Part shown: positions 1,483-62,999 of the stretch, piece after piece
Layout: each line of letters begins with the position of its first letter
How positions within the stretch are numbered: the stretch's first letter is position 1
Source: Cognatishimia sp. 1_MG-2023
GTDB taxonomy: Bacteria; Pseudomonadota; Alphaproteobacteria; Rhodobacterales; Rhodobacteraceae
Assembly (NCBI RefSeq): GCF_030548175.1
Contig: NZ_JAUORX010000002.1
Coordinates: 248,001-312,000, forward strand
DNA length: 64,000 bases
Direction: 5' to 3'
Notes under the pieces: generated by a model
What the model saw: the letters and a program-made list of their open reading frames with translations, nothing else
Database searches by the model: none
What the model was told of the DNA's origin: nothing
Translations under genes and position numbers: made by a program

Positions 1483-4440
1483 TTACCCTTCAATGGTCAG
1501 CGCTTCGTTCACGAGCGCGTTTTGTTGTGCTTTGTGTTGGCTCGCCAAACCGGTTGCTGGCGACGCAGATGCTGCGCGGCCCACAAAGGTTGGACGTGTG
1601 TGTTTTGCTTTGATCCGGCCAAGAACCCATTCGATGTTTGGCTCAATAAAGGACCATGCACCTTGGTTCTTTGGTTCCTCTTGGCACCAAACCATCTCTG
1701 CCCCCTTAAAGCGCTCTAGCTCTTTCACAAGAGAGATCGCTGGGAACGGATAGAACTGTTCGACACGCAGCAGGTAAACATCGTCGATGCCGCGAGCGTC
1801 ACGTTCTTCAAGCAGATCATAGTAAACCTTACCCGAGCACATAACGACGCGTTTGATCTTGCTATCTGCAACCAGTTTCGTGTCGCTGTTACCATGCTGT
1901 GCATCGTCCCACAGAACGCGGTGGAAGCTTGATCCATCGGTGAACTCGTCGGCCTTTGAAACTGCCAGCTTATGGCGCAGCAAAGATTTCGGCGTCATCA
2001 AGATCAATGGCTTACGGAAGCTGCGGTGCAACTGACGGCGCAGGATGTGGAAGTAGTTCGCAGGCGTTGTACAGTTTGCAACGATCCAGTTGTCACCACC
2101 ACACATCTGCAAGAAGCGCTCCAAACGCGCAGAGCTGTGCTCTGGGCCTTGGCCTTCGAAACCGTGCGGCAATAGAACGGTCAAACCGGACATCCGCAGC
2201 CATTTGCTTTCACCAGAGCTGATGAACTGGTCAAACATGATCTGCGCACCGTTGGCAAAATCACCAAACTGAGCTTCCCAAAGGGTCAGCGCATTTGGTT
2301 CTGCCAACGAGTAGCCATATTCAAAGCCCAAAACCGCATATTCAGACAGTGCAGAGTCGATCACCTCGTACTGCGCTTGCCCTGGACGGACATTGTTCAG
2401 CGGGTAATAGCGGCTCTCATCGTCTTGGTTCACGATACCTGAGTGACGCTGCGAGAATGTCCCGCGGGTTGCGTCTTGGCCAGACAAACGAACAGGATAA
2501 CCTTCGGTCAGCAATGACCCAAAGGCCAGCGCTTCGCCGGTTGCCCAATCAATACCTTCGCCAGTTTCAAACATCTTGCCGCGGTTTTCCAACAAGCGAC
2601 CAACCGTTTTGTGAATTGGATAGCCTTCTGGAACCGTGGACAAAGATTTGCCAACCTCATCAAACGTCGCGCGTTTGATCGCGGTCTCACCGCGTTGGTA
2701 ATCTTCGTCTTTGCGATCCAAATGAGACCACTTACCGTCTAGCCAATCAGCTTTATTCGGTTTGAATTCCTTACCTGCTTCGAACTCTTCGTTCATTTTG
2801 GCTTGGAACGCGGCCTTCATGTCTTCGATTTCACCCTCAGGGATCAAACCGTCTTTGACCAAACGCTCGGTGTACAAAGATAGGGTCGTTTTGTGGCCCT
2901 TAATCTTTTTGTACATCACCGGGTTGGTGAACATCGGTTCGTCGCCTTCGTTGTGACCAAAGCGGCGATAGCAGAAGATGTCCAAAACAACGTCTTTCTG
3001 GAACTTCTGGCGGAACTCCGTCGCAACCTTAGCTGCGTGTACAACCGCTTCTGGGTCATCACCGTTCACGTGGAAGATCGGCGCTTCAACAACCAGCGCG
3101 TTGTCTGTTGGATATGGGGAAGACCGCGAGAAGTGCGGCGCAGTTGTGAAACCAATCTGGTTGTTCACAACGATATGCATTGTGCCGCCGGTCTTATGGC
3201 CACGCAGACCGGACAAAGCGAAACATTCCGCAACAACACCTTGGCCCGCAAAGGCCGCATCGCCGTGCAATAGAATTGGCAGAACTTGACTACGCTCTTC
3301 GTCGCCCAATTGGTCTTGTTTCGCGCGTACCTTGCCCAAAACAACCGGGTTCACCGCCTCTAGGTGCGATGGGTTCGCTGTCAACGACAGGTGAACATTG
3401 TTGCCGTCAAACTCACGGTCAGAAGAGGCACCAAGGTGATATTTCACATCCCCAGAACCATCAACGTCTTCTGGCTTAAACGATCCACCTTGGAATTCGT
3501 TAAAGATCGCTTTGTATGGCTTCTGCATGACGTTCGCCAAAACAGACAAACGACCACGGTGCGGCATGCCGATAACGATGTCACGTACACCCAACGCACC
3601 ACCGCGTTTGATGATCTGTTCCATCGCGGGGATCAGGCTTTCGCCACCGTCCAAGCCAAAACGCTTGGTGCCCATGTATTTCACATGCAGGAACTTCTCA
3701 AAGCCCTCGGCCTCAACCATCTTGTTCAGGATCGCTTTACGACCTTCACGGGTAAAGGTGATCTCTTTGTTGTAGCCTTCGATGCGCTCTTTCAACCAGC
3801 TCGCTTCTTCGGGGTTGGAGATATGCATGTACTGCATCGCGAAAGTACCACAATAGGTACGACGCACGATGTCTAGGATTTGGCGCATCGTTGCGATCTG
3901 CAAACCCAAGACATTGTCGATAAAGATCGGACGATCCATGTCCGCGCCGGCAAAGCCATAAGACGCCGGGTCCAACTCAGGGTGCGGCGTCTGATCGCGC
4001 ATACCAAGCGGATCAAGGTCCGCAACCAAGTGGCCACGAATACGGTAAGCCCGGATCAACATCAGCGCCCGGATCGAATCCAGAACCGCTTGTTTGATCG
4101 CTTCGTCAGAGACTTCCACGCCTTTTTCAGCCGCTTTCGCCTTGATCTTGTCGCCAGCTGCTTTGCCTTCCGCCGGGGCAGGCCATTCGCCTGTCAACGC
4201 ACCGGTTAGGTCATCATTGGGGGCAGGAGGCCAATCGCCACGCGCCCAAGACGGGCCAGTCGCTTCGGCCTTTACGTCCAGCTCTGCATCGCCAAGCTGT
4301 TTGAAAAAGTCTTGCCAGACCTCATCAACCGCATTCGGGTCAGACGCATAGCGCGCGTAAAGCTGTTCAAGATATTCAGCATTATGCCCCTGCATAAAGC
4401 TGGAGGCATGAAAAACGTCGTTTGACGATTGGTCGGTCAT
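1483..4440 (-). CDS. sucA: 2-oxoglutarate dehydrogenase E1 component
   Basis: Thiamine-diphosphate-dependent decarboxylase of the 2-oxoglutarate dehydrogenase complex, 985 residues, close to the family length of about 930-990. The N-terminal E1 domain that contacts the E2 core is recognisable ([13 protein letters not shown], about residues 23-35), followed by the cofactor region with [10 protein letters not shown] and the C-terminal transketolase-like half ending near EQFYPFP. The start at 4440 (MTDQSS) has GGGAG 8 nt upstream and is preferred to an in-frame ATG 18 nt earlier that lies upstream of this Shine-Dalgarno. It sits between sucD (103 bp gap with a hairpin) and sucB (8 bp). Confidence 0.97.
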
Positions 4441-4502
4441 GGAGGACTCCCGAGCCACAAGGTTTCTATTATTACTTTCGGCTCTATGCGCCGAACTTAG
4501 AA

Positions 4503-4543: not shown

Positions 4544-5425
4544 TTAGCCGATCGCCTTCAGAACAGCTTCGCCCAAACCGGCTGGGCTGTCTGCAACAAC
4601 GATACCTGCGGATTTCATCGCTTCGATCTTGTCTTCGGCGCCACCTTTACCGCCAGCGACAATCGCGCCAGCGTGACCCATGCGGCGGCCCGGAGGTGCC
4701 GTACGGCCAGCAATGAAGCCAGCAGTTGGTTTCCAACGGCCCTTCTTCTTTTGCTCTTTCAGGAATTCCGCAGCTTCTTCTTCTGCAGAACCACCGATTT
4801 CACCGATCATAATGATGGACTGTGTTTCGTCGTCGTCTAGGAACATGTCCAATACGTCGATGTGCTCAGTACCTTTGATCGGGTCGCCACCGATGCCCAC
4901 AGCTGTGGACTGGCCCAGACCGATGTCAGCAGTTTGCTTAACCGCTTCATAAGTCAAGGTACCGGAACGGGATACAACACCAACAGAGCCACGCTTGTGG
5001 ATGTGGCCCGGCATGATGCCGATTTTGCAGGCGTCAGGAGTGATAACACCTGGGCAGTTCGGGCCGATCAGGCGCGACTTGCTGTCGATCAACGCACGTT
5101 TCACACGCATCATGTCCAGCACAGGAATGCCTTCAGTGATACAGATGATCAGTTCCATTTCCGCATCGATCGCTTCCAGAATGGAATCCGCCGCGAAAGG
5201 AGGAGGAACATAGATCACAGAAGCATTTGCTTCGGTGACGTGCTTTGCTTCGTGTACCGAGTTGAACACTGGCAAGCCAAGATGCTCATTGCCACCTTTG
5301 CCCGGTGTCACACCACCGACCATTTTAGTGCCATATGCAATCGCTTGCTCAGAGTGGAACGTACCCTGCGAGCCAGTCAGGCCCTGACAGATTACTTTGG
5401 TATTTTCGTCAACGAGAATGGCCAT
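4544..5425 (-). CDS. sucD: Succinyl-CoA ligase (ADP-forming) subunit alpha
   Basis: Alpha subunit of succinyl-CoA synthetase, which makes ATP or GTP from succinyl-CoA in the TCA cycle. The 293-residue length is typical. The N-terminal CoA-binding Rossmann domain is intact (CQGLTGSQG, about 13-21), and the phosphorylated active-site His is His251 in [11 protein letters not shown]. The start at 5425 has AAAGGA 8 nt upstream, located over the end of sucC, so the two subunits are translationally close. Downstream, a hairpin separates it from sucA. Confidence 0.97.
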
Positions 5426-5429
5426 CTTA

Positions 5430-6623
5430 TTATCCTTTCACCGCTTTAACGATCTTTTCAGCACCGTCAGACAGGTTGTCTGCTGCGATGACGTCAAGGC
5501 CAGAGTTGTTGATGATGTCTTTACCAGCTTCAACGTTTGTACCCTCAAGGCGCACAACCAATGGAACTTTCAGACCAACTTCTTTCACAGCGGCCACAAC
5601 GCCCTCTGCGATCACGTCGCAGCGCATGATGCCACCAAAGATGTTCACCAAGATGCCTTTGACGTTCGGGTCAGAGGTGATGATTTTGAACGCTTCGGTT
5701 ACTTTTTCTTTGGTAGCGCCGCCACCAACGTCCAAGAAGTTCGCAGGCTCAGCACCGTACAGTTTGATGATGTCCATAGTGGCCATCGCCAGACCCGCGC
5801 CGTTCACCATGCAACCGATCTCGCCGTCAAGCGCGATGTAGTTCAGGTCGTATTTGGACGCTTCCAATTCTTTGGAATCTTCTTCGCTCTCGTCGCGCAG
5901 CTCAGCTACGTCAGCGTGGCGATAGATCGCGTTGCCGTCAAAGCCCAGTTTCGCATCTAGAACCTTCAGGTCACCAGAGTCAGACACGATCAGCGGGTTG
6001 ATTTCCAGCATCTCCATGTCTTTTTCGGTGAACGCTTGGTACAGTTGACCCATCAGCTTAACGCACTGCTTAACCTGCGCGCCGGTCAGGCCCAAAGAGA
6101 ACGCAACACGACGGCCGTGGTATGGCTGGTAGCCAGTCGCCGGATCAACAGAGAAAGACAGGATCTTCTCAGGAGTGGACTCTGCTACTTCTTCGATGTC
6201 CATGCCGCCCTCGGTGGAGCAGACGAAAGACACACGAGATGTCACGCGGTCAACCAGCAGAGCCAGATACAATTCACGCTCAATGCCGGAACCAGCTTCG
6301 ATGTAGATACGATTGACTTGCTTGCCCGCTGGACCAGTCTGGTGTGTCACCAGAGTACGACCAAGCATTTTCTTCGCTTCTTCTGCGGCTTCTTCCACAG
6401 ATTTCGCTAGGCGTACGCCGCCTTTTTCGCCTGCATCAGCTTCTTTAAAAGAGCCTTTGCCGCGTCCACCTGCGTGGATTTGTGCCTTAACAACCCAAAG
6501 CGGGCCATCAAGCTCACCGGCTGCGGTTTTGGCATCCTCGGCCTTCAGAACAATACGTCCTTCAGAAACCGGGGCACCGTATGTACGAAGGAGAGCCTTC
6601 GCTTGGTATTCATGGATGTTCAT
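5430..6623 (-). CDS. sucC: Succinyl-CoA ligase (ADP-forming) subunit beta
   Basis: Beta subunit of succinyl-CoA synthetase; carries the ATP-grasp nucleotide site and binds succinate. The protein is 397 residues and starts with the family hallmark [12 protein letters not shown]. Visible landmarks are [11 protein letters not shown] near residue 46 (nucleotide-binding) and the C-terminal ligase domain with GGIMRCD and [10 protein letters not shown]. First gene of the sucCDAB operon. Its upstream region holds two TGTGATCACA palindromes at 6731-6761, shared with the sdhC promoter, which are the likely control point of the operon. Confidence 0.97.
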
Positions 6624-6730
6624 GAACCTATCCCATATTGCTGCGGTTGAGACAGGTATAGACCTAAGATGACCAACAAACTAAGCAGTTTTTTCCAATA
6701 CCGAAGAAATACGGGCAATTTTCTCTAATT

Positions 6731-6761
6731 TGTGATCACACGAAAAAAAGCTGTGATCACA
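6731..6761. promoter_or_regulatory. Twin TGTGATCACA palindromes upstream of sucC
   Basis: Two identical 10-bp perfect palindromes (6731-6740 and 6752-6761) whose starts are 21 bp apart, i.e. two helical turns. They lie 108-138 bp upstream of the sucC start. The same pair with the same spacing is found upstream of sdhC at 13906-13936, and in the sucC and sdhC orientations both spacers begin GC and contain a T run. This looks like a dimer-of-dimers operator for a TCA-cycle regulator. The divergent glycosyltransferase gene could also be affected. The regulator is unknown to me. Confidence 0.7.
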
Positions 6762-6853
6762 AAATTGCTTTGGATGTGAATTCTGTTGATTCGTGTGGCC
6801 CTATTCGCCACAGTCCCTCAGGTATTAATTATAATTCTTATAGGTTCACCTTT

Positions 6854-7858
6854 ATGTCTTGGGCAATCGTAATTACGGCGGATGAGCTTGAATCATTGCT
6901 CTTGGCCAACGTGGCATGGCATCTCGCGACCGGCGCTTCAGCGGTCCATGTCTATCTTGACAGGCCTGACGACCCCGTGGCCGAAAAACTACGTAAAATT
7001 CACGGAGTTCAGGTCACACTCTGCGACGATGCCCATTGGAACCGCCTAAACAAAAATAAAGGTCGCCCAGTTTTGCAGATGTCGCGGCAATCGCTTAATG
7101 CAAACGACGCACTTAAGAACACCACCGCCGATTGGCTGGTCCACCTTGATGCCGATGAATTCTTAAACCCCACCGGAAACCTCGCCCTCGAATTTCAATA
7201 TGTCCGCGAATTAGACGTCGAACTTCATTTTCCCGCGTGGGAACGCGCCTATTTTGCCGATCAACCTATCACAGGCCTATTCGATGGCGTCATGCGCGGC
7301 TCTACCAAAGGACGGCACCGGCATGACGGAACCATTTTTAAAGATAACGACGACTGCCTAAATCTTGGTATGATTGGTCATGCGGCTGGCAAATGTGCCG
7401 TGCCAACGAACAGTAACTTTATTCTTGGCGTGCATTGGTCATTTCGCGAGAAACGCGGGCCTAAAAACCGTTCCGAACGTTATGGCAGTCAGGCCGCTCG
7501 GCTCTATCATTTCGACGGTCTCACACCGCTGCATTGGGTCATCAAATCTCTAAGATACGCCAGCCACGATCCCAATGATCTAAAGCGGCTCGTGTCCGAC
7601 AGTCGCCTTGCCCAAATCCAACGTCTGCTCAAAACCGGGGGGGATCGCGCCGCAGGGCAACGATTGCACGACGCCCTGCGCCTGCTCGATGCACCCTATT
7701 TGGATCGGTTAGAAGGGTTTGGATTGCTGGATCGTCAGGGATTTAACCCCTTGCCAAAAATCCAAAGCATTTTGCCAGATTACACACTCCCAACCGCAAA
7801 AGAATGGGATGCGCAAATCCTTGAACGTTATCCAGATATGGCCGACGCGCTTAAGTAA
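6854..7858 (+). CDS. Glycosyltransferase family 2-like protein
   Basis: Putative glycosyltransferase of 334 residues, of the cytoplasmic Glyco_tranf_2_4 kind common in Rhodobacteraceae. It begins with a Rossmann-like strand (SWAIVITADELE) and has a DxD-type metal and nucleotide-sugar site, HLDADEF, at about residues 98-103. No signal peptide or membrane segment is seen. The start at 6854 is chosen because the family begins at this point and the upstream 28 codons look non-coding; the ribosome site is weak. It lies on the opposite strand between sucC and mdh, two genes that are usually adjacent in this order. Acceptor and donor are unknown; a surface polysaccharide role is only a guess. Confidence 0.8.
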   Translation: MSWAIVITADELESLLLANVAWHLATGASAVHVYLDRPDDPVAEKLRKIHGVQVTLCDDAHWNRLNKNKGRPVLQMSRQSLNANDALKNTTADWLVHLDADEFLNPTGNLALEFQYVRELDVELHFPAWERAYFADQPITGLFDGVMRGSTKGRHRHDGTIFKDNDDCLNLGMIGHAAGKCAVPTNSNFILGVHWSFREKRGPKNRSERYGSQAARLYHFDGLTPLHWVIKSLRYASHDPNDLKRLVSDSRLAQIQRLLKTGGDRAAGQRLHDALRLLDAPYLDRLEGFGLLDRQGFNPLPKIQSILPDYTLPTAKEWDAQILERYPDMADALK

Positions 7859-7877
7859 CCCGAGCGCCAGACACAAA

Positions 7878-7907
7878 AAAAGCGCAGATGAAATCATCTG
7901 CGCTTTT
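7878..7907. terminator. Bidirectional terminator between glycosyltransferase and mdh
   Basis: A 13-bp perfect inverted repeat (7878-7890 and 7895-7907, core GCGCAGATG/CATCTGCGC, loop AAAT) flanked by A and T runs. It lies between two convergent stop codons and can end transcription in both directions. Confidence 0.9.
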
Positions 7908-7927
7908 CCGTAAATCTTTAGGTCAGC

Positions 7928-9796
<1,869 letters not shown>

Positions 9797-9800
9797 CCGA

Positions 9801-10118
9801 TCACGCGTCTTTGCCATCCTCTGGCAAAACCTCTGCCAATGTCTCAAATGATTGCCCAGAAGCCACGAGGCAGGTCGTGCCATTTGGCATCGTGATCGTG
9901 ATCGTCCACGATCCGCTTTGATCGCTCGCGAACACTTCGACCAACGCATTGTCGCGCCCAAGGCCAACCGACTGACGCGTTTCGCCATATCCTTCGGTCA
10001 AACGCTGCACCACTGAATCTCGGGGGGCACAGTTGCGCATAGATTGGGCCGCAACTTGGCTGGCAAAGCAAAGAGCCAGAGCCGTAAGAATGAAAAGTCT
10101 CGATCTTCCTTTCATCAT
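9801..10118 (-). CDS. Small secreted hypothetical protein
   Basis: About 105 residues with a clear signal peptide (KGRSRLFILTALALCFA, cleavage near AQS) and a small mature domain with two Cys (NCAPRD and TTCLVAS), compatible with a disulfide in the periplasm. Two adjacent ATG codons (10118 and 10115) follow AAGGA; the second has the better spacing. I do not recognise the family, although such proteins are common in roseobacters. It ends 4 bp after the permease stop, tail to tail. Confidence 0.7.
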   Translation of the reverse strand: MMKGRSRLFILTALALCFASQVAAQSMRNCAPRDSVVQRLTEGYGETRQSVGLGRDNALVEVFASDQSGSWTITITMPNGTTCLVASGQSFETLAEVLPEDGKDA

Positions 10119-10425
10119 CTTATCCTTTCTTGCATGGCACAGTGTTACTGCCTGCAAAAACGGCCCCTCTCTCATAAATACTCAGAGATTCTGCCGCAAA
10201 TAAGGCAAACGCCCACCTGTGCGTGATGGGAAAATCTTGCGCATCAGACGAGAACGAAGCGTTAATGCAGCGTGCGTTGCCCCCAAATCAGTGCTTAAAA
10301 ACTCATGTAAATAGGAAACATCCCTTTGCGACGCACCGTCTTTCTGCGGTGCGGCGAATTACTCCTTGAATTCTTTTTGCAAAAAATGCCACTACTAGGC
10401 GCAACTTTATTACGGGAGAGAATCC
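10119..10425. other. Intergenic region upstream of the malyl-CoA thioesterase/lyase operon
   Basis: About 307 bp with no gene. It holds a hairpin with a 7-bp stem (CGCACCG 10332-10338, CGGTGCG 10347-10353), the palindrome TTTTTGCAAAAA at 10374-10385, and GGGAGA serving as ribosome site for the TTG start at 10426. A degenerate GAGTATTTATGAGAG on the minus strand near 10165-10185 resembles the 3'-end repeat found elsewhere in the window. Promoters for both flanking genes must lie here, but I could not place a convincing -35/-10 pair. Confidence 0.6.
10374..10385. promoter_or_regulatory. TTTTTGCAAAAA palindrome upstream of malyl-CoA thioesterase/lyase gene
   Basis: Perfect 12-bp palindrome 41-52 bp upstream of the start codon, in the expected promoter zone. 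The same core TTTTGCAAAA occurs between ecm and ccr. TTTGCAAA is the reported half-motif of short-chain acyl-CoA-sensing regulators (RamB, PccR), so the site is a plausible operator of the ethylmalonyl-CoA pathway. Confidence 0.5.
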
Positions 10426-11280
10426 TTGTCGCAACGCACACGCCCATACCGCTCCGTCCTTTACATTCCGGGTTCCAAGGAACGCGCGCTGGAAAAGGCA
10501 AAGACACTTCCAGTTGATGCAATCATCTTTGACCTCGAAGATGCCGTCGCTCCGACCGAAAAAGAAAACGCGCGCGACATTCTCGCAAACGCACTCGAAA
10601 CCGGCGATTACGGCCCGCGTATGCGTATCGTTCGGATCAACGACCTCTCAACGGAATGGGGCCCAGCCGACGCAGCAGCGGTCAAGAACATGCAGGCTGA
10701 CGCGGTGCTCTTGCCCAAAGTTGACAGCGCCGCCCAAGTCCAAGCCTTGGCTGACATCGTTGGCGACATGCCAATCTGGGCCATGATGGAAACCGCACGC
10801 GGCATGCTAAACGCGCTCGAAATCGCATCCCACCCAAGCCTACAAGGCTTTGTAATGGGCACCAACGATCTTGCCAAAGAACTGCAATCGCGCTTCCGCG
10901 CAGATCGCCTTCCGTTGCAAACCGGTCTTGGCCTTTGCCTTTTGGCCGCGAAAGCCGAAGGCGTTGTTATTGTCGATGGCGTCTACAACGCCTTCAAAGA
11001 CGACGATGGCCTGCGCTTTGAATGTGAACAGGGCCGCGATATGGGCATGGATGGCAAAACCCTCATCCACCCAGCACAGGTCGACATTGCCAACACTGCC
11101 TTCGCCCCATCAGAGGCGGAAATCGACCTGTCTCGTCGTCAGATCGAGGCATTCGAACAAGCCGAAAAAGAAGGCACTGGCGTCGCCGTAGTGGACGGAA
11201 AGATCGTCGAAAACCTGCACGTTGTGACCGCCCGCGAAATTCTCGCGAAAGCGGATGCAATTGCCGAAATTAGCGGTTAA
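10426..11280 (+). CDS. mcl2: (3S)-malyl-CoA thioesterase / malyl-CoA lyase family protein
   Basis: Citrate-lyase-beta-like CoA ester enzyme, 284 residues. The length and the N-terminus (RSVLYIPGSKERALEKA) match the Mcl2-type malyl-CoA thioesterase of Rhodobacter better than the roughly 318-residue lyase Mcl1. It acts at the end of the ethylmalonyl-CoA pathway, where malyl-CoA is turned into malate and CoA. The metal-site motif IIFDLEDAVAP (about 33-43) and MMETARGM are present. The start is TTG at 10426, with GGGAGA spaced 5-6 nt. It is first in an apparent operon with NnrU-like, DUF1737 and mesaconyl-CoA hydratase genes. Malyl-CoA lyase activity instead of thioesterase cannot be excluded. 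Confidence 0.87.
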   Translation: MSQRTRPYRSVLYIPGSKERALEKAKTLPVDAIIFDLEDAVAPTEKENARDILANALETGDYGPRMRIVRINDLSTEWGPADAAAVKNMQADAVLLPKVDSAAQVQALADIVGDMPIWAMMETARGMLNALEIASHPSLQGFVMGTNDLAKELQSRFRADRLPLQTGLGLCLLAAKAEGVVIVDGVYNAFKDDDGLRFECEQGRDMGMDGKTLIHPAQVDIANTAFAPSEAEIDLSRRQIEAFEQAEKEGTGVAVVDGKIVENLHVVTAREILAKADAIAEISG

Positions 11281-11320
11281 AAGTTAAGGCGATTTACATT
11301 CCTGATCGGAGATCGCATTC

Positions 11321-11869
11321 ATGGCACTTATTGTCATAGGCTTAATTCTTTGGGTGGCGGCGCATTTGTTCAAACGCGTGGCCCCCGCAAAACGTGCAGC
11401 AATGGGCGATAAGGGCAGGGGCCCCATCGCGTTAATTCTGCTTGCCGCTATCGTCCTTTTCATCGTCGGCTACCGGATGAGCGAATACACCCACCTATGG
11501 GATCGCGCAGGCTGGGCCACTCCGGTGAACAACCTGCTGATGATTTTCGCACTATATTTCACCAGCCCCGGCCCAAGCAAAGGCGCGCTATTTCACAAGA
11601 TGCGCCACCCCATGCTGACCGGCTTCCTTCTATGGGTTGTCGCGCACCTCTTGGTAAACGGCGACATGGCATCGCTTGTTCTCTTTGGCGGCCTTGGCCT
11701 CTGGGCCTTGCTGGAAATCGTGGTGATCAACCGCGCTGAACCAAACTGGGAACCAAACCCAAAGGGCACCATTGCCAAAGACGGCATGTTCTTGGCCATT
11801 TCAATCTTACTCGTTGGCGTGATCGGTTCCATCCACATGCTCTTCGGCCTTACCCCATTCGGAGGATAA
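11321..11869 (+). CDS. NnrU family membrane protein
   Basis: Integral membrane protein of 182 residues with about five to six hydrophobic segments and the family patterns LWVAAHLF and FHKMRHPMLTGFLLWVVAHLL. NnrU was first noted near nitrite and nitric oxide reductase genes, and its relative in carotenoid pathways is an isomerase (Z-ISO), so a haem or isomerase role is conceivable but unproven. Here it is 40 bp after the malyl-CoA thioesterase/lyase gene and 4 bp before the DUF1737 gene, inside an ethylmalonyl-CoA operon, not a denitrification cluster. Confidence 0.85.
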   Translation: MALIVIGLILWVAAHLFKRVAPAKRAAMGDKGRGPIALILLAAIVLFIVGYRMSEYTHLWDRAGWATPVNNLLMIFALYFTSPGPSKGALFHKMRHPMLTGFLLWVVAHLLVNGDMASLVLFGGLGLWALLEIVVINRAEPNWEPNPKGTIAKDGMFLAISILLVGVIGSIHMLFGLTPFGG

Positions 11870-11873
11870 CACC

Positions 11874-12077
11874 ATGAAACTATACCGTTTTCTCTCCGAG
11901 GATGACACATCCGCCTTCTGCCACAAAGTCACCGACGCCTTGAACAAAGGCTGGGAATTACACGGCGACCCAACGCAAACCTTTGACCCTGTCAAAGGCA
12001 TCATGCGCTGCGGTCAAGCTGTGGTGAAAGAGGTCGAAGGCACCTACACCCCAGACACAAAGCTAGGAGCGCACTAA
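11874..12077 (+). CDS. DUF1737 domain protein
   Basis: Small soluble protein of 67 residues covering a whole DUF1737 domain (YRFLSEDDTSAFCHKVTDAL, then GWELHGDPT). The function is unknown; the fold is expected to be a small alpha/beta domain. It starts 4 bp after the NnrU-like gene and its stop overlaps the mesaconyl-CoA hydratase start (TAATG), so the two are translationally coupled. The tight coupling suggests it is needed in a fixed ratio with the hydratase, but that is inference. Confidence 0.85.
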   Translation: MKLYRFLSEDDTSAFCHKVTDALNKGWELHGDPTQTFDPVKGIMRCGQAVVKEVEGTYTPDTKLGAH

Positions 12078-13108
12078 TGGCCAAGACCAACCCGGGCCGG
12101 TTCTTCGAAGATTACAAAGTGGGCGACGTGATCAAACACGCCGTCCCACGCACCATCTCAGGTGGCGAGCGCGCGATGTACCACGCGCTCTATCCTGCGC
12201 GTCATGCGCTTTACTCTTCGGATGAATTCGCGCGGGCCTCTGGTCTGACAAAGTCGCCAATCGATGATCTGGCGGCCTTCCACGTCGTGTTCGGTAAAAC
12301 CGTGCCCGACGTATCCCTAAACGCTGTCGCGAACCTCGGCTATGCCGAGGGCCGCTGGCTGCTACCGGTCTACGAGGGCGACACGCTGCGTTCCGAATCC
12401 GAAGTCATCGGCGTCAAACAAAACTCCAACGGTAAATCCGGCGTTGTTTATGTCCGCACCCGTGGCCTCAACCAAAACGACGAAACCGTCATGGAATACG
12501 TCCGCTGGGTCATGGTCCGCAAAGGCAACCTAGACGCCCCAGCACCAGAAACCGTGATCCCGGACCTCAACAAAGTCATTCCAGCAGATCAACTCCAGAT
12601 CCCAGCAGGCCTTGATTTTACCAACTACGACTTTGACCTCGCCGGCGAACAGCACCGCTGGGGCGATTACGAAATCGGCGAAACCGTTGACCACGTCGAT
12701 GGCGTCACAGTCGAAGAAGCCGAACACATGATCGCCACCCGCCTGTGGCAAAACACAGCCAAAGTCCACTTTGACAACACCGCCCGCCCAGACGGCACCC
12801 GCCTGATCTACGGCGGCCACGTCATCTCCATGGCCCGCGCGCTGTCCTTCAATGGTCTTGCCAACGCACAGATGATCGTTGGCCTCAACGGCGGCGCACA
12901 CGCCAACCCATGCCTCTCCGGCACGACCATCCGCGCCTGGTCCGAAGTTCTGGACAAAGCCGAAACCAACGCCCCCGGCGTCGGCGCCATCCGCCTCCGC
13001 CTTGTTGCAACCAAAGGCGGCGCGCCGTTCGAACTCAAGGGCGAAGACGGGAAATACCTGCCAGACGTCCTGCTAGACCTTGATGTTTGGGCGCTAATGC
13101 CGCTTTGA
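12077..13108 (+). CDS. mch: Mesaconyl-CoA hydratase (beta-methylmalyl-CoA dehydratase)
   Basis: Interconverts beta-methylmalyl-CoA and mesaconyl-CoA in the ethylmalonyl-CoA pathway. The 343-residue protein is a double MaoC-like hotdog hydratase: an N-terminal domain (FFEDYKVGDVIKH, about 9-21) and a second copy from about residue 190 (RWGDYEIGETVDHVDG). The family begins with PGRFFEDY, supporting the start at 12077, which overlaps the DUF1737 stop. Its place after the malyl-CoA thioesterase/lyase gene supports the pathway assignment. Confidence 0.93.
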   Translation: MAKTNPGRFFEDYKVGDVIKHAVPRTISGGERAMYHALYPARHALYSSDEFARASGLTKSPIDDLAAFHVVFGKTVPDVSLNAVANLGYAEGRWLLPVYEGDTLRSESEVIGVKQNSNGKSGVVYVRTRGLNQNDETVMEYVRWVMVRKGNLDAPAPETVIPDLNKVIPADQLQIPAGLDFTNYDFDLAGEQHRWGDYEIGETVDHVDGVTVEEAEHMIATRLWQNTAKVHFDNTARPDGTRLIYGGHVISMARALSFNGLANAQMIVGLNGGAHANPCLSGTTIRAWSEVLDKAETNAPGVGAIRLRLVATKGGAPFELKGEDGKYLPDVLLDLDVWALMPL

Positions 13109-13115
13109 TAGCAGC

Positions 13116-13874
13116 ATGATCAAAGCCTTATTATCAGCCGCAACCATAGCTTTGGCCTGTCCCGCACAGGCCGAGCTTTCCCTGACAGACACGCCAGCAG
13201 ACACGCAGGCCTATGTCGAAAACAACTTGCTTGGCATTTTCTACCACGAATTCGGCCACGCCCTGATCGACATCCTAGAGTTGCCAATCTTCGGCCAAGA
13301 AGAAGACGCAGCCGACGTGCTGTCCGTCTTCCTCCTCTCGGAATTCTACGAAGAAGAGGCCGCCGTTCAGCTCGCCTACGACACCGCCTTCGGGTTCCTC
13401 GGCGAAGCCGATCAAACAGCCGCAGCGGATATTCCCTTCTGGGACGTGCACGGCCCAGACATTCAACGCTATTACAATCTGGTCTGCATCTTCTACGGTG
13501 CCAACCCAGACGAACGCGATGACGTTGCCCAAGACCTCGGCCTTCCAGAAGAACGCGCAGACTATTGCCCGGATGAATTTGACCAAGCCGCTCATAGCTG
13601 GGGCGGGGCGCTTGACGAAATTGCAAATGACAAAGGCGGCCAATCGATCAAGCTTGGCAACGTCCAAGAAGACACCGACGGAGCCATCTTAACAGCCCGC
13701 GTGATCACAGAAGAGATCAAAGCGCTCAACGCTGAATTCCGTCTACCGATGACCCTAGATGTGCACGTCATCGCCTGCGACGAGGCCAATGCCTTCTACG
13801 ATCCGGCAGAGCGCAGCATCACGATGTGCACAGAATTTGCCGATTCATTGGTCGAAATGGCGCCAGACTTCTAA
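13116..13874 (+). CDS. Secreted DUF4344 putative metallopeptidase
   Basis: Periplasmic or secreted protein of 252 residues with a signal peptide cleaved near residue 19 (CPAQA). A zinc-peptidase motif HEFGH sits at residues 44-48, very close to the mature N-terminus, followed by FGQEEDAADVLSVF, where an acidic residue could be the third ligand, as expected for DUF4344. Three Cys could form disulfides. It starts 7 bp after mch and may be read through from that operon, although the substrate and any link to carbon metabolism are unknown. Confidence 0.82.
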   Translation: MIKALLSAATIALACPAQAELSLTDTPADTQAYVENNLLGIFYHEFGHALIDILELPIFGQEEDAADVLSVFLLSEFYEEEAAVQLAYDTAFGFLGEADQTAAADIPFWDVHGPDIQRYYNLVCIFYGANPDERDDVAQDLGLPEERADYCPDEFDQAAHSWGGALDEIANDKGGQSIKLGNVQEDTDGAILTARVITEEIKALNAEFRLPMTLDVHVIACDEANAFYDPAERSITMCTEFADSLVEMAPDF

Positions 13875-13905
13875 ATGGCTCATTAATCTTGCAAGTTTCC
13901 ACATT

Positions 13906-13936
13906 TGTGATCACAGCAACTTTTTCTGTGATCACT
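13906..13936. promoter_or_regulatory. Twin TGTGATCACA palindromes upstream of sdhC
   Basis: TGTGATCACA at 13906-13915 and TGTGATCACT at 13927-13936, starts 21 bp apart, 137-167 bp upstream of sdhC. Spacing and sequence match the pair upstream of sucC. Both lie outside coding sequence. A common operator for the succinate dehydrogenase and sucCDAB operons is the simplest reading. Confidence 0.7.
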
Positions 13937-14072
13937 TAATTGCATCATGTTTGCGCCAACTGATAAAAAACCGTACGTTTCAACAAAAAATCACTGATTT
14001 TTACGATCCGGAAAGGTGACAAATTAGAAAATCTCGTTACTAAAGAGCCAAGCGAACCTGAAAGGAGCCAGC

Positions 14073-14456
14073 ATGGCCGATGTAAATCGCGGCAATCGCC
14101 CGCTATCGCCACATTTGACCATCTACCGTCCACAATTGACCTCGATCTCATCTATCATGGTGCGGATTACCGGTATTGCGACGTTTTTTGTCTCTGTGAT
14201 CATCGTCTGGTGGCTTCTAGCCGCTGCGACCTCGGCGTCATCCTTCGGGGCGGTCGACGGGTTCTTGCGCAGCTGGTTTGGTGACCTGATCTTGCTTGGC
14301 GCGACTTGGGCTATTTTCTACCACGCACTCGGACGTCTGCGTCACGTGATCTGGGATTTCGGGTATTGCCTCGAAGTTGAAACATCCGAGACGATGGCCA
14401 AGGGTATGTTCATCCTTGCGACCGTTCTGACCGTCATCACAATGATCTTGGTGTAA
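14073..14456 (+). CDS. sdhC: Succinate dehydrogenase cytochrome b556 subunit
   Basis: Membrane anchor of complex II, 127 residues with three transmembrane helices. The family signature RPLSPHLTIYRP is at 9-20, the quinone-site region SISSIMVRITG follows at about 24-34, and the haem b ligand is probably His84 in FYHALGRLRHV. The start at 14073 has AAAGGAG 6-8 nt upstream. It leads the sdhCDA operon and is followed by sdhD with a 5-11 bp gap. Twin palindromes lie upstream. Confidence 0.96.
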   Translation: MADVNRGNRPLSPHLTIYRPQLTSISSIMVRITGIATFFVSVIIVWWLLAAATSASSFGAVDGFLRSWFGDLILLGATWAIFYHALGRLRHVIWDFGYCLEVETSETMAKGMFILATVLTVITMILV

Positions 14457-14467
14457 GGGGAATGGCT

Positions 14468-14839
14468 ATGAATTATCTCACTGACCGCAAACGCGCACAG
14501 GGCCTTGGTTCCGCGAAACAAGGCAGCCATCACCACTGGGTTATGATTGTTAGCTCAATCGCGCTGGTTCTTGTTGTTCCATTTTTCGTGCTGACCCTCG
14601 GTTCCGCAATTGGCGGCACCCACGAAGAGGTGCTCGCATTCTTTAGCCGCCCAGTCGCCGCGATCTTCACCGGTCTCGCTCTGGCGGTCATCATCAACCA
14701 CGTAAAACACGAAGCCCATGAAGCGATCGAAGACTACATGCATGGCGTTGCGCAAAAACTGACATTGGTTGCCACATCCGTGGTGGCGAACACGTTGATT
14801 GCCGCCGGTCTGTTTGCTCTCGTGAAACTCGCTCTGTAA
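14468..14839 (+). CDS. sdhD: Succinate dehydrogenase membrane anchor subunit
   Basis: Second membrane subunit of complex II, 123 residues with three transmembrane helices. The start MNYLTDRKRAQGLGS is preferred at 14468: GGGG (14457-14460) is then spaced 7 nt, and homologues begin at this point. The ATG 6 nt earlier is too close to the Shine-Dalgarno. Haem or quinone contacts would come from helix 2 (IINHVKHEAHE). Sits between sdhC and sdhA. Confidence 0.94.
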   Translation: MNYLTDRKRAQGLGSAKQGSHHHWVMIVSSIALVLVVPFFVLTLGSAIGGTHEEVLAFFSRPVAAIFTGLALAVIINHVKHEAHEAIEDYMHGVAQKLTLVATSVVANTLIAAGLFALVKLAL

Positions 14840-14863: not shown

Positions 14864-16672
14864 ATGACAGCTGCTTACGAATACGAAACGCACGAATATG
14901 ATGTTGTTGTGGTTGGTGCCGGCGGCGCAGGTTTGCGCGCCACACTGGGCATGGCAGAACAAGGTCTGCGCACTGCTTGTGTGACCAAAGTTTTCCCAAC
15001 CCGCTCGCACACAGTTGCCGCTCAGGGCGGTATCGCGGCATCCCTGTCCAACATGGGCCCAGACAACTGGCAGTGGCACATGTATGACACCGTCAAAGGC
15101 TCTGACTGGTTGGGTGACACCGACGCGATGGAATACCTCGCGCGTGAAGCCCCAAAAGCGGTCTACGAACTGGAACACTACGGTGTGCCGTTCTCTCGTA
15201 CCGAAGAGGGCAAGATCTACCAGCGTCCATTCGGCGGCCACACCACCGAATTTGGCGAAGGCCCAGCCGTTCAGCGGACCTGCGCCGCAGCGGACCGGAC
15301 CGGCCACGCGATCCTGCACACACTTTACGGCCAGTCCCTAAAGAACAACGCAGAATTCTACATCGAATACTTCGCGATTGACCTCATCATGAGCGAAGAG
15401 GGCGAATGCCAAGGCGTCGTCTGCTGGAAACTTGATGACGGCACAATGCACGTCTTCAACGCAAAAACCGTTGTTCTGGCGACAGGCGGCTATGGCCGTG
15501 CGTATTTCTCTGCAACCTCTGCGCACACCTGCACAGGTGACGGCGGCGGCATGGTGGCCCGCGCGGGTCTGGCCCTGCAGGATATGGAATTCGTTCAGTT
15601 CCACCCAACCGGTATCTACGGCTCTGGCTGCTTGATCACCGAAGGTGCACGCGGCGAAGGTGGTTACCTGACCAACTCCGAAGGCGAGCGTTTCATGGAA
15701 CGTTACGCACCACAGTACAAAGACCTCGCACCACGCGACTACGTTTCCCGGTCGATGACCATGGAAATCCGCGAAGGCCGTGGTGTTGGCGCCGAAGGCG
15801 ACCACATCTTCCTAAACCTCAACCACCTTCCATCAGAAGCCCTCGCAGAACGCCTGCCAGGCATCTCTGAATCCGCGAAAATCTTCGCAGGTGTTGACGT
15901 GACCAAAGAGCCGATCCCGGTTCTGCCAACAGTTCACTACAACATGGGCGGTATCCCAACCAACTATTGGGGTGAGGTTCTGAACCCAACCAAAGACGAC
16001 CCAACCGCGACCGTGCCTGGCCTGATGGCCGTGGGCGAAGCGGGCTGTGCGTCGGTTCACGGTGCAAACCGTCTGGGCTCTAACTCTTTGATCGACCTCG
16101 TGGTCTTCGGTCGTGCGGCCGCAATCCGCGCTGGCAAAACCGTTGATGCAGATGCCGCAAACCCAACGCTGAACCAAGCGTCTGTAGATGCCGCATTTGA
16201 TCGCTTCGACGGTCTGCGCAACGCCAAAGGCAACGTTTCAACTGCAGAACTGCGCCTAGAGATGCAGAAAACCATGCAGTCTGACGCTGCCGTCTTCCGT
16301 ACAGACAAAACCCTCAAAGAGGGCGTTGAAAAGATGACAGACATCGCGGGCAAAATGGATGACCTCAAAGTCACCGATCGCAGCTTGGTCTGGAACTCTG
16401 ATCTGATGGAAACGCTAGAGCTTGCAAACCTCATGCCAAACGCGCTGGCCACCATCCACGGTGCCGAAGCACGTAAGGAATCTCGCGGTGCACATGCCCA
16501 CGAAGATTACTCAGAGCGTGACGACAAAAACTGGCGCGTTCACACCGTGTCCCGCGTAGACGGCAACAAAGTTGACCTGTCTTACCGCCCAGTCGTCAAA
16601 GACCCTCTGACCACAGAGGCCGAAGGCGGCATCAACCTCAAGAAAATCGCACCAAAGGCACGTACGTTCTAA
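14864..16672 (+). CDS. sdhA: Succinate dehydrogenase flavoprotein subunit
   Basis: Catalytic subunit of complex II, oxidising succinate to fumarate; 602 residues. FAD-binding GAGGAGLRA is at about 18-26, and the His that covalently holds FAD is His49 in [11 protein letters not shown]. Substrate-site motifs HPTGIYGSG and [11 protein letters not shown] are present. The stop codon overlaps the start of the next gene (TAATG), an unrelated lipoprotein, not sdhB, which lies 1.45 kb further on. Confidence 0.97.
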
Positions 16673-18119: not shown

Positions 18120-18899
18120 ATGGTCGAATTTGCGCTCCCTAAAAACTCCCGTATCACCACGGGTAAAACCTGGCCCAAGCCAGACGGCGCTAAGAACCTG
18201 CGCAAGTTCCAGATTTATCGCTGGAACCCAGATGATGGCAAAAACCCATCCGTCGATACGTATTTTGTCGACATGGACAATTGCGGCCCAATGATCTTGG
18301 ACGCGTTGATCAAGATTAAGAACGAGATCGACCCAACACTGACCTTCCGCCGCTCTTGCCGCGAAGGTATCTGTGGCTCTTGCGCGATGAACATCGACGG
18401 CATCAACACGCTGGCCTGTATCTATGGCATCGATGAAGTCAAAGGCGCGGTTAAGATTTACCCACTGCCGCACATGGAAGTTGTTCGCGACCTGATCCCA
18501 GACCTGACGCATTTCTACGCGCAGCACGCGTCGATCATGCCGTGGTTGGAAACCAAAACCAACCGCCCTGCGAAAGAGTGGAAGCAGTCTATCGAAGACC
18601 GCAAAAAGCTGGATGGTTTGTATGAATGCGTAATGTGCGCATCCTGCTCAACCTCTTGCCCAAGCTACTGGTGGAACAGCGATCGTTACCTCGGCCCAGC
18701 AGCGCTGCTACATGCGTACCGTTGGATCATCGATTCACGCGACGAAGCGACTGGCGAGCGTCTGGACGAGCTTGAAGATCCGTTCAAACTGTACCGCTGC
18801 CACACAATTATGAACTGTGCGAAAACCTGCCCCAAGGGTTTGAACCCAGCCAAGGCGATTGCAGAGATCAAAAACATGATGGTGGAACGCGCTGTTTAA
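18120..18899 (+). CDS. sdhB: Succinate dehydrogenase iron-sulfur subunit
   Basis: Electron-transfer subunit of complex II, 259 residues. The 2Fe-2S site is formed by CREGICGSC and a later Cys in TLAC; the 4Fe-4S and 3Fe-4S sites by [13 protein letters not shown] and [14 protein letters not shown]. Start at 18120 after AAGGAGACGACGGA. It has its own 96-bp leader after the sulfotransferase-like gene and may have an additional promoter. A repeat hairpin and a terminator follow. Confidence 0.96.
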
Positions 18900-62069: not shown

Positions 62070-62999
62070 TTAGTAACCTGCTGATCTGTCGACGAGATGG
62101 TGCAGCGGTTGATTGGATTCTGCGCGGTGAATGTTTTCGGCAATCACCTGGGCTGCAGTGCTGGCGCGGGTATCGGCGGCGATGTGGGGCGTGACGGTGA
62201 CATTGGGATGCGTCCAATAAGGGTTGTCTGCGGGCAGGGGTTCTTGGCGGAATACGTCAAGAGTGGCGTGGGCGATGTGGCCTGTGTTGAGCGCGTTGAG
62301 CAGGGCTGTGTCATCAATCAGCGTGCCACGACCCGGATTGATGATGCGTGCGCCTTTGGGGAGTTGCGCGAGGGTTTCGGCGTTCATCGTGCTTTCGGTG
62401 GCGGGCGTGTTGGGCAGCAATGTGATCAGAATTTCGGCGGAGTTGAGCGCTTGGGTGAGGCCATCTGGGCCGTGTTCACAAGTGATGACGGGGATGGATT
62501 TCGGGCGGCGAGACCAGCCAGTGACGTTGAAACCGAGCGAGGCAAGTGTGGCTGCGCAGGCTTGGCCGAGTTGGCCGAGGCCGAGCACGGTGACAGGACG
62601 TTCAGAGGCGAGGGGTGGAACGTTTTGCACCCAGCTGCCGTCTTGGGCGGCTAAGTTGGCGTCGATCCCGAGGTGATAGCGTAGCGTGTGGCCGGTGACC
62701 CATTCGACCATGCCTTGGGTGAGGCCCGGATCCACCATGCGGCACAGAGGCTGCGTTAGGGTTTTGTTGCTGACGATTTTCTCGACACCTGCCCAGAGGC
62801 TAAGGACGGCTTTGCAGCGTTTGTATGGGGTGAAATCCTGCAAGGCGCTGCTGGGCGCGTAGATGATGTAATCGGTCGTTTCGGGGGAGTGATCGCGGCT
62901 GAGGTCACAATCGAGACCTGCTTTGGTGAAGGCTTTGCGCAGGGCGGGGCTGTATTCATCCCAATTGGTGTCTTTGGCAGAGAATAGGACGTTGATCAT
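62070..62999 (-). CDS. ghrA: Glyoxylate/hydroxypyruvate reductase A-like 2-hydroxyacid dehydrogenase
   Basis: 309-residue D-2-hydroxyacid dehydrogenase. NAD(P) loop TVLGLGQLGQACAATLASLG (about 136-155), NPGRG with the catalytic Arg region, and TPHIAADT with the catalytic His. Length and N-terminus match GhrA, which reduces glyoxylate and hydroxypyruvate. Could consume glyoxylate generated by the ethylmalonyl-CoA pathway, but there is no operon link. Start overlaps the VOC stop by 4 bp. Confidence 0.87.
   Translation of the reverse strand: MINVLFSAKDTNWDEYSPALRKAFTKAGLDCDLSRDHSPETTDYIIYAPSSALQDFTPYKRCKAVLSLWAGVEKIVSNKTLTQPLCRMVDPGLTQGMVEWVTGHTLRYHLGIDANLAAQDGSWVQNVPPLASERPVTVLGLGQLGQACAATLASLGFNVTGWSRRPKSIPVITCEHGPDGLTQALNSAEILITLLPNTPATESTMNAETLAQLPKGARIINPGRGTLIDDTALLNALNTGHIAHATLDVFRQEPLPADNPYWTHPNVTVTPHIAADTRASTAAQVIAENIHRAESNQPLHHLVDRSAGY

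Follow-up and report, generated by a model that had tools for sequence, protein, structure and literature searches.

Two operons of the tricarboxylic acid (TCA) cycle, headed by sucC and sdhC, are each preceded by a pair of short palindromes in the 64,000-nucleotide stretch of Cognatishimia sp. 1_MG-2023 analysed here (contig NZ_JAUORX010000002.1, positions 248,001 to 312,000; hereafter the window). Comparison with related genomes supports, at a probability of about 90%, the reading that these twin palindromes are operators through which the GntR-family regulator AkgR would activate the suc and sdh operons. A first-pass annotation of the window had drawn attention to the two pairs; its observation was confirmed, and its interpretation as the sites of a shared regulator is supported.

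Twin palindromes upstream of sucC and sdhC

The palindrome TGTGATCACA occurs at 6752-6761 and 6731-6740, the distal and proximal predicted AkgR sites of the sucC promoter (minus strand; conserved in relatives), and at 13906-13915, the distal predicted site of the sdhC promoter (plus strand). The proximal predicted sdhC site, at 13927-13936 on the plus strand, is the variant TGTGATCACT. The start-to-start spacing is 21 bp at both promoters, and the half-sites of the palindrome abut with no gap between them. The first-pass annotation was thus correct in the positions, the spacing and the identity of three of the four copies, as well as in stating that the pair occurs nowhere else in the window, where CGTGATCACA at 13700 and TGTGATCAGA at 62421 are further near-matches, each of them unpaired. 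The proximal palindrome lies 107 bp from the ATG of sucC and 136 bp from that of sdhC, close to the distances first given. The sucC pair is located between sucC, on the minus strand, and a divergently oriented gene whose product has a glycosyltransferase domain (Pfam Glyco_tranf_2_4).

The occurrence of the twin palindromes is far beyond chance. With the core GTGATCAC and a partner with at most one mismatch as search criteria, the 21-bp pair was found 0 times in 200 dinucleotide-preserving shuffles of the window versus two times in the window itself. In the 3.16-Mb genome (20 contigs), the twin palindrome with at most one mismatch occurs at two places, upstream of sucC and of sdhC, and the random scatter through the genome that had been named as grounds for discarding the pair was not seen. 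Allowing up to three mismatches raised the genome-wide total to four pairs: besides those of the window, which have 0 and 1 mismatch, there are two with three mismatches, both within open reading frames (ORFs). As had been claimed, mdh (minus strand, within the ORF at 7928-9268) has no pair in this whole-genome scan. Of six exact single copies of TGTGATCACA, three belong to the window, two fall within ORFs and one immediately precedes a GntR-family gene; since 124 single copies were found when one mismatch was allowed, an isolated near-match carries little meaning.

In gene orientation, the spacers of both window pairs start with GC and contain a T tract, as described previously. Across the family, the spacer sequence is conserved only loosely; these features are therefore not the signal and were set aside.

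Conservation across the family and class

The family scan covered 198 genomes of Rhodobacteraceae, each from a different genus. GTGATCAC-N13-GTGATCAC with at most one mismatch was found in 172 of the 198 genera, and the exact pair with any spacer of 1-31 bp in 176. A backwards-read control gave 0 matches in every genome of both scans; it contains CTAG, which may be rare, and is hence an imperfect control. Among the 75 forward exact pairs listed, the spacer was 13 bp in 62, 12 bp in 6 and of other length in 7, so that the palindrome-to-palindrome spacing was 20 or 21 bp in 68 of the 75.

Conservation at both promoters in relatives, which had been set beforehand as the test of the pair, was found. 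We examined 77 pairs, comprising 75 forward matches listed (13-bp spacer, at most one mismatch) and the two of the window: 61 lie upstream of sucC or sdhC, one upstream of sucA, one upstream of fumC and 14 elsewhere. The first batch, consisting of 35 stretches that hold 59 pairs, was annotated with the proteins of the window, and together with the window's own pairs 59 of 61 precede sucC or sdhC at a distance of at most 400 bp; in locus L103, one pair is found 136 bp ahead of a sucA match. The remaining 16 pairs include two exact ones, upstream of sucC and sdhC, and the 14 elsewhere, each of which is mismatched. These 14 look like chance matches; 13 fall within ORFs of at least 100 aa (one such ORF being a distant sucC paralog) and the last is close to a contig end, outside any ORF of at least 100 aa.

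Moreover, the pair was recovered in loci that had been picked for the GntR gene described below and not for the motif. A Rhodobacter-type query yielded 80 such loci (L111 and 79 with organism names), in which the 21-bp pair with at most one mismatch was present at 12 of 12 reachable sucC/sdhC upstream regions, including those of Fertoeibacter niger, Gemmobacter straminiformis, Pseudotabrizicola sediminis and Rhodobacter sp. SW2. Among 385 genomes sampled across the class, an exact pair whose spacer was 12 or 13 bp long was found in 5 of 5 same-family genomes (source genome included) versus 2 of 380 others, and the backwards control gave five matches, all in one non-family genome (G271).

Several other arrangements of the palindrome were observed. 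Rows of three or four palindromes in 21-bp steps are present in L153, L161, L175, L093 (sucC) and L103 (sdhC); the rows of L161 and L175 each include one 26-bp step, and in L093 and L103 two pairs share one palindrome within a row of three. A third exact twin pair was found in genome G042 upstream of a fumarase C gene (L123:1594-1622), and the regulon may reach this next TCA step in some lineages. Outside the family, twin GTGATCAC copies lie beside a GntR/FCD gene in a genome of another family (L215:992-1020), which hints that the palindrome is common to related regulators. The other outside-family pair (L216) falls within an ORF.

Association with a GntR-family regulator

The single TGTGATCACA associated with the GntR gene lies 8 bp before its ATG. 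This gene (G000:C17:124907-125554, minus strand), referred to here as akgR, encodes a product of 216 aa with GntR and FCD domains. An exact self-site palindrome was found in 29 of the 30 top-scoring GntR loci (source genome included), and TTGAY starts exactly 18 bp upstream of GTGATCAC in 25 of these 29. The self-site palindrome would thus lie over the spacer and −10 region of a TTGAC-type promoter, which is a repressor position. Carriers of the self-site among the 80 loci include Roseobacter, Ruegeria and Phaeobacter.

The GntR gene was present (E ≤ 1e-30) in 182 of the 198 genera. Presence of the exact pair and of the gene coincided across the 198 genomes (both 174, gene only 8, pair only 2, neither 14; Fisher p = 3e-14, nominal because the genomes are related), and the corresponding counts at an E cut of 1e-60, chosen after the values had been seen, were 172, 3, 4 and 19. 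Outside the family, 1 of 380 genomes had a GntR match at E ≤ 1e-40, with 38% identity.

A second GntR match at E ≤ 1e-30 was observed in many family genomes, for example a 39%-identical paralog in G055 and a near-equal second copy in G193. In addition, two GTGATCAC copies just 5 bp apart lie upstream of the akgR ortholog of G187 (G187:C1:3357949-3357969).

The usual metal ligands of FCD domains are an aspartate and three histidines. In an alignment of 48 AkgR orthologs, the FCD positions N137, H141, H184 and D206 were invariant (L056:1408-2055), and the metal site of AkgR would be altered relative to the usual one, which may bear on the effector. McbR of E. coli, the targets of which differ from those of AkgR, has a solved structure. 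It is the closest solved relative by sequence (PDB 4p9f, E = 2.9e-18).

Relation to the AkgR regulon of Rhodobacter sphaeroides

The gene order in L111 is sucA-D-C, mcl, mch, sdhC-D-A-B and the GntR gene (76% identical), with pairs upstream of sucC and sdhC. By its replicon sizes and gene order, the genome of L111 is presumably that of R. sphaeroides 2.4.1, and AkgR is presumably its RSP_0981. The abstract of the primary AkgR paper (2015, mBio) reportedly equates AkgR with RSP_0981 and describes it as a direct activator of several TCA-cycle genes. In the accessible part of PMC4344238, the GntR-family regulator RSP_0981 is predicted to control RSP_0967-6 (succinyl-CoA synthetase), RSP_0974-6 (succinate dehydrogenase) and RSP_0965-62 (2-oxoglutarate dehydrogenase), and the accessible part of PMC6365646 gives GTGATCAC as an AkgR motif and terms AkgR an activator.

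The source genome has the corresponding components, namely the GTGATCAC core motif, an ortholog with GntR and FCD domains, sites upstream of two presumed operons, and co-occurrence of sites and regulator across genomes. The first operon, on the minus strand, comprises sucC (succinyl-CoA synthetase beta, 397 aa, 5430-6623) as its first gene, sucD (succinyl-CoA synthetase alpha, 4544-5425) and sucA (2-oxoglutarate dehydrogenase E1, 1483-4458); the second, on the plus strand, comprises sdhC (succinate dehydrogenase cytochrome b556 subunit, 14073-14456), sdhD (membrane anchor, 14462-14839), sdhA (flavoprotein, 14864-16672) and sdhB (iron-sulfur subunit, 18120-18899). As far as the accessible parts of PMC4344238 and PMC6365646 go, the R. 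sphaeroides regulon has the same regulator family, target operons and GTGATCAC core, and the pairs at sucC and sdhC in L111 add to this likeness. Two differences were found: akgR lies on another contig than sdh here, whereas it comes after sdhCDAB in L111, and the self-site that covers the −10 region of akgR here is lacking at the L111 gene.

Judged from sequence, the regulator acting at the twin palindromes is almost certainly AkgR, and the regulon itself is already known from R. sphaeroides. The agreement with the RSP_0981 targets predicted in the accessible part of PMC4344238 supports the first-pass proposal that one regulator ties complex II to succinyl-CoA synthetase and 2-oxoglutarate dehydrogenase. 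No description of the twin spacing and phasing was found in the literature searched, the reach of which did not extend to the primary 2015 AkgR paper, and a search of papers for the literal TGTGATCACA returned none on the subject by title and abstract. A more distant system, the PS417_07240-type GntR regulator of deoxyribonate oxidation in Pseudomonas and Burkholderia, is 32% identical to AkgR and has a GTGATCAC palindrome upstream of its cluster; according to the accessible part of PMC6365646, it differs in combining one palindrome with a catabolic cluster in place of a phased pair on TCA operons.

Putative promoter elements and helical phasing

Because a consensus-based promoter search of the window found none, promoters were inferred from conservation. 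At sdhC, 44 of 51 sequences contain GTGACW within offsets 60-92, counted downstream from the proximal palindrome. TAnnAA comes 16 bp after it, and the combination looks like a −35/−10 promoter. The putative −35 element of the window is GTGACA at 14016-14021 (plus strand, offset 88 from the proximal operator), and the putative −10 element, 16 bp after it, is TACTAA at 14038-14043 (plus strand).

The pattern pair-N55-85-GTGACW was matched in 260 of 394 family genomes. In the 150 matches listed, which were taken by pattern regardless of the gene downstream, the GTGACW offsets were 65-68 (127 matches), 77-79 (10), 85-88 (8) and elsewhere (5). Among periods of 8.5-13.0 bp in 0.5-bp steps, 10.5 bp best brought the minority classes into register with the main class (mean cosine 0.55 vs. 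0.50 at 10.0 and 11.0 bp), and 15 of the 23 offsets outside 65-68 fell at whole-turn positions that were named after a first look (nominal p = 9e-5). The jumps in distance also seem to be recurrent: a rapidly built tree from SdhC, SdhD and SdhA, with 51 rows and with 21 of its 48 inner branches open, requires a minimum of 10 changes among the three distance classes. That sdhC promoter distances lie about one helical turn apart suggests activation that depends on the face of the helix.

At sucC, TATAVC at offsets 60-90 was found in 25 of 195 genomes, and of the 26 matches listed, 23 lie at 78-80 and one each at 69, 64 and 81; as most genomes are without the hexamer, this offset pattern rests on a minority. 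The putative −10 element of the window is TATACC at 6655-6660 (minus strand, offset 79 from the proximal operator), preceded by a putative −35-like TTAGTT at 6679-6684 (minus strand) in a region conserved among nine species of the genus. Within this genus, the element lies at offset 68 in five species and at 79 in four (window included), a difference that corresponds to insertions of 11 and 12 bp, placed differently by the alignment. Taken over both promoters, the −10 positions (~68, 79, 89, 99 and 109; class means set by hand) follow a step of ~10.1 bp with residuals below 0.6 bp. The proximal operators of the window would be centred roughly at −88 (sucC) and −118 (sdhC) from transcription starts inferred at about 6648 and 14050, respectively. 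The claim that a 21-bp phase fits two dimers on one DNA face gains support from this promoter phasing and from the 20/21-bp spacing of the pairs.

The promoter may also lie at slightly different offsets from 20-bp and from 21-bp pairs, by a margin too small to use. In the sdhC upstream regions of many genomes, an TTGCGCCAAAAAACCGCG-like element recurs between the operators and GTGACW.

The LacI-family regulator CceR (RSP_1663) is also a predicted regulator of sdh in R. sphaeroides, according to the accessible part of PMC4344238. The CceR motif is [AGT]GTT N6-8 AAC[ACT], which the twin palindrome does not fit. A LacI-type palindrome that matches the CceR consensus, TGTTTGCGCCAACT, lies at 13948-13961, just downstream of the sdhC operators, and GTTTGCGCAAAC is found at a similar position in four other species of the genus. 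General co-regulation by CceR was rejected, as its motif was not enriched between operator and gene (sdhC, 5 of 51 with a shuffle mean of 2.1; sucC, 1 of 56 with a shuffle mean of 2.7).

Discussion

In the proposed mechanism, one AkgR dimer would occupy each TGTGATCACA, and the promoters of sucCDA and sdhCDAB would each be preceded by two neighbouring dimers separated by two helical turns. From a fixed face of the DNA these dimers would activate transcription, in line with the activation reported for R. sphaeroides AkgR, and succinyl-CoA synthetase, 2-oxoglutarate dehydrogenase and complex II would rise and fall together. At akgR, the single palindrome overlaps the −10 region, a position that suggests that AkgR may repress its own gene by steric hindrance. 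Paired palindromes two turns apart and a promoter that shifts mostly by whole turns, found at two operons whose promoters differ, are the expected trace of a face-dependent activator, just as the solitary copy at akgR is that of autorepression. The evidence also tilts, less firmly, towards a broader proposal in which a single protein, AkgR, would act in either of two modes depending on the architecture of its operator: two dimers in phased tandem would activate suc and sdh over a long range, and a lone dimer would repress akgR in part of the family, the roseobacter-type lineages. With such a division of modes, the promoter would be free to shift only by whole helical turns.

A number of observations weigh against activation of both operons by AkgR as set out above. 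No exact pair was found in 22 of the 198 genera. Among the eight genera with the GntR gene only, five have weak matches, G040 and G155 have pairs with one mismatch, and the G147 genome is 73% complete; conversely, a pair without a GntR gene was found in G096 (77% complete) and G114, and in G019 and G033, which have pairs, the GntR match is weak. Most Rhodobacter-type relatives lack the self-site: among the 80 loci obtained with the Rhodobacter-type query it was exact in 15, had one mismatch in 3 and was absent in 62. It is also missing in 5 of 7 loci beyond the 30 top-scoring ones. As for the promoters, GTGACW is missing from offsets 60-92 in 7 of 51 sdhC regions, and 134 of the 394 genomes gave no pair-GTGACW match. 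The minority classes show moderate coherence (0.55) at a period of 10.5 bp, and the 394-genome count includes genomes in which the phase classes had first been noticed. Moreover, with inferred positions from about −88 to −139, the operators would lie a long way upstream for simple RNA polymerase contact. Lastly, the link to the published regulon combines an AkgR motif taken from the accessible part of a citing paper (PMC6365646) with a presumed identity of AkgR and RSP_0981.

The alternative that survives best, and that we still regard as unlikely, is that AkgR represses suc and sdh and is released on binding of its effector, a behaviour shared by many regulators of the FCD type in the GntR family. 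FCD-type GntR regulators are mostly repressors, and the single akgR site is itself in a repressor position. The pairs, however, lie upstream of the conserved promoter-like elements and not over them, and the distance between operator and promoter at sdhC shifts by about one helical turn, as would be expected for an activator. AkgR is, in addition, termed an activator in the accessible part of PMC6365646.

It is considerably less probable that the sites serve another regulator that recognises TGTGA/TCACA, such as a CRP/FNR-family protein. TGTGA is indeed the CRP half-site; CRP sites, however, have a 6-bp gap between the half-sites, and this TGTGA-N6-TCACA spacing is not found at the present palindromes, which have no gap. 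Moreover, the pair tracks one GntR gene, and that gene has the same palindrome at its own promoter in nearly all of the top-scoring loci. That the palindromes are a mobile or RNA-hairpin repeat and not protein sites is hardly credible: they are perfect and paired, as such a repeat might be, yet there are about two pairs per genome, the 20/21-bp spacing is kept despite variable spacer sequence, and the sites lie upstream of the inferred promoters and so are probably outside the transcript.

Activation by AkgR from phased tandem operators would, if true, amount to a family-wide rule that keeps two TCA operons on the same face of the DNA despite different promoters. The analysis names a likely regulator for a previously unannotated operator, and comparative genomics indicates that AkgR operators at suc and sdh are common to most of the family. 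The setting of TCA-cycle capacity in these bacteria may accordingly follow a testable geometric rule, in which whole-turn and half-turn insertions between operator and promoter would differ in their effect.

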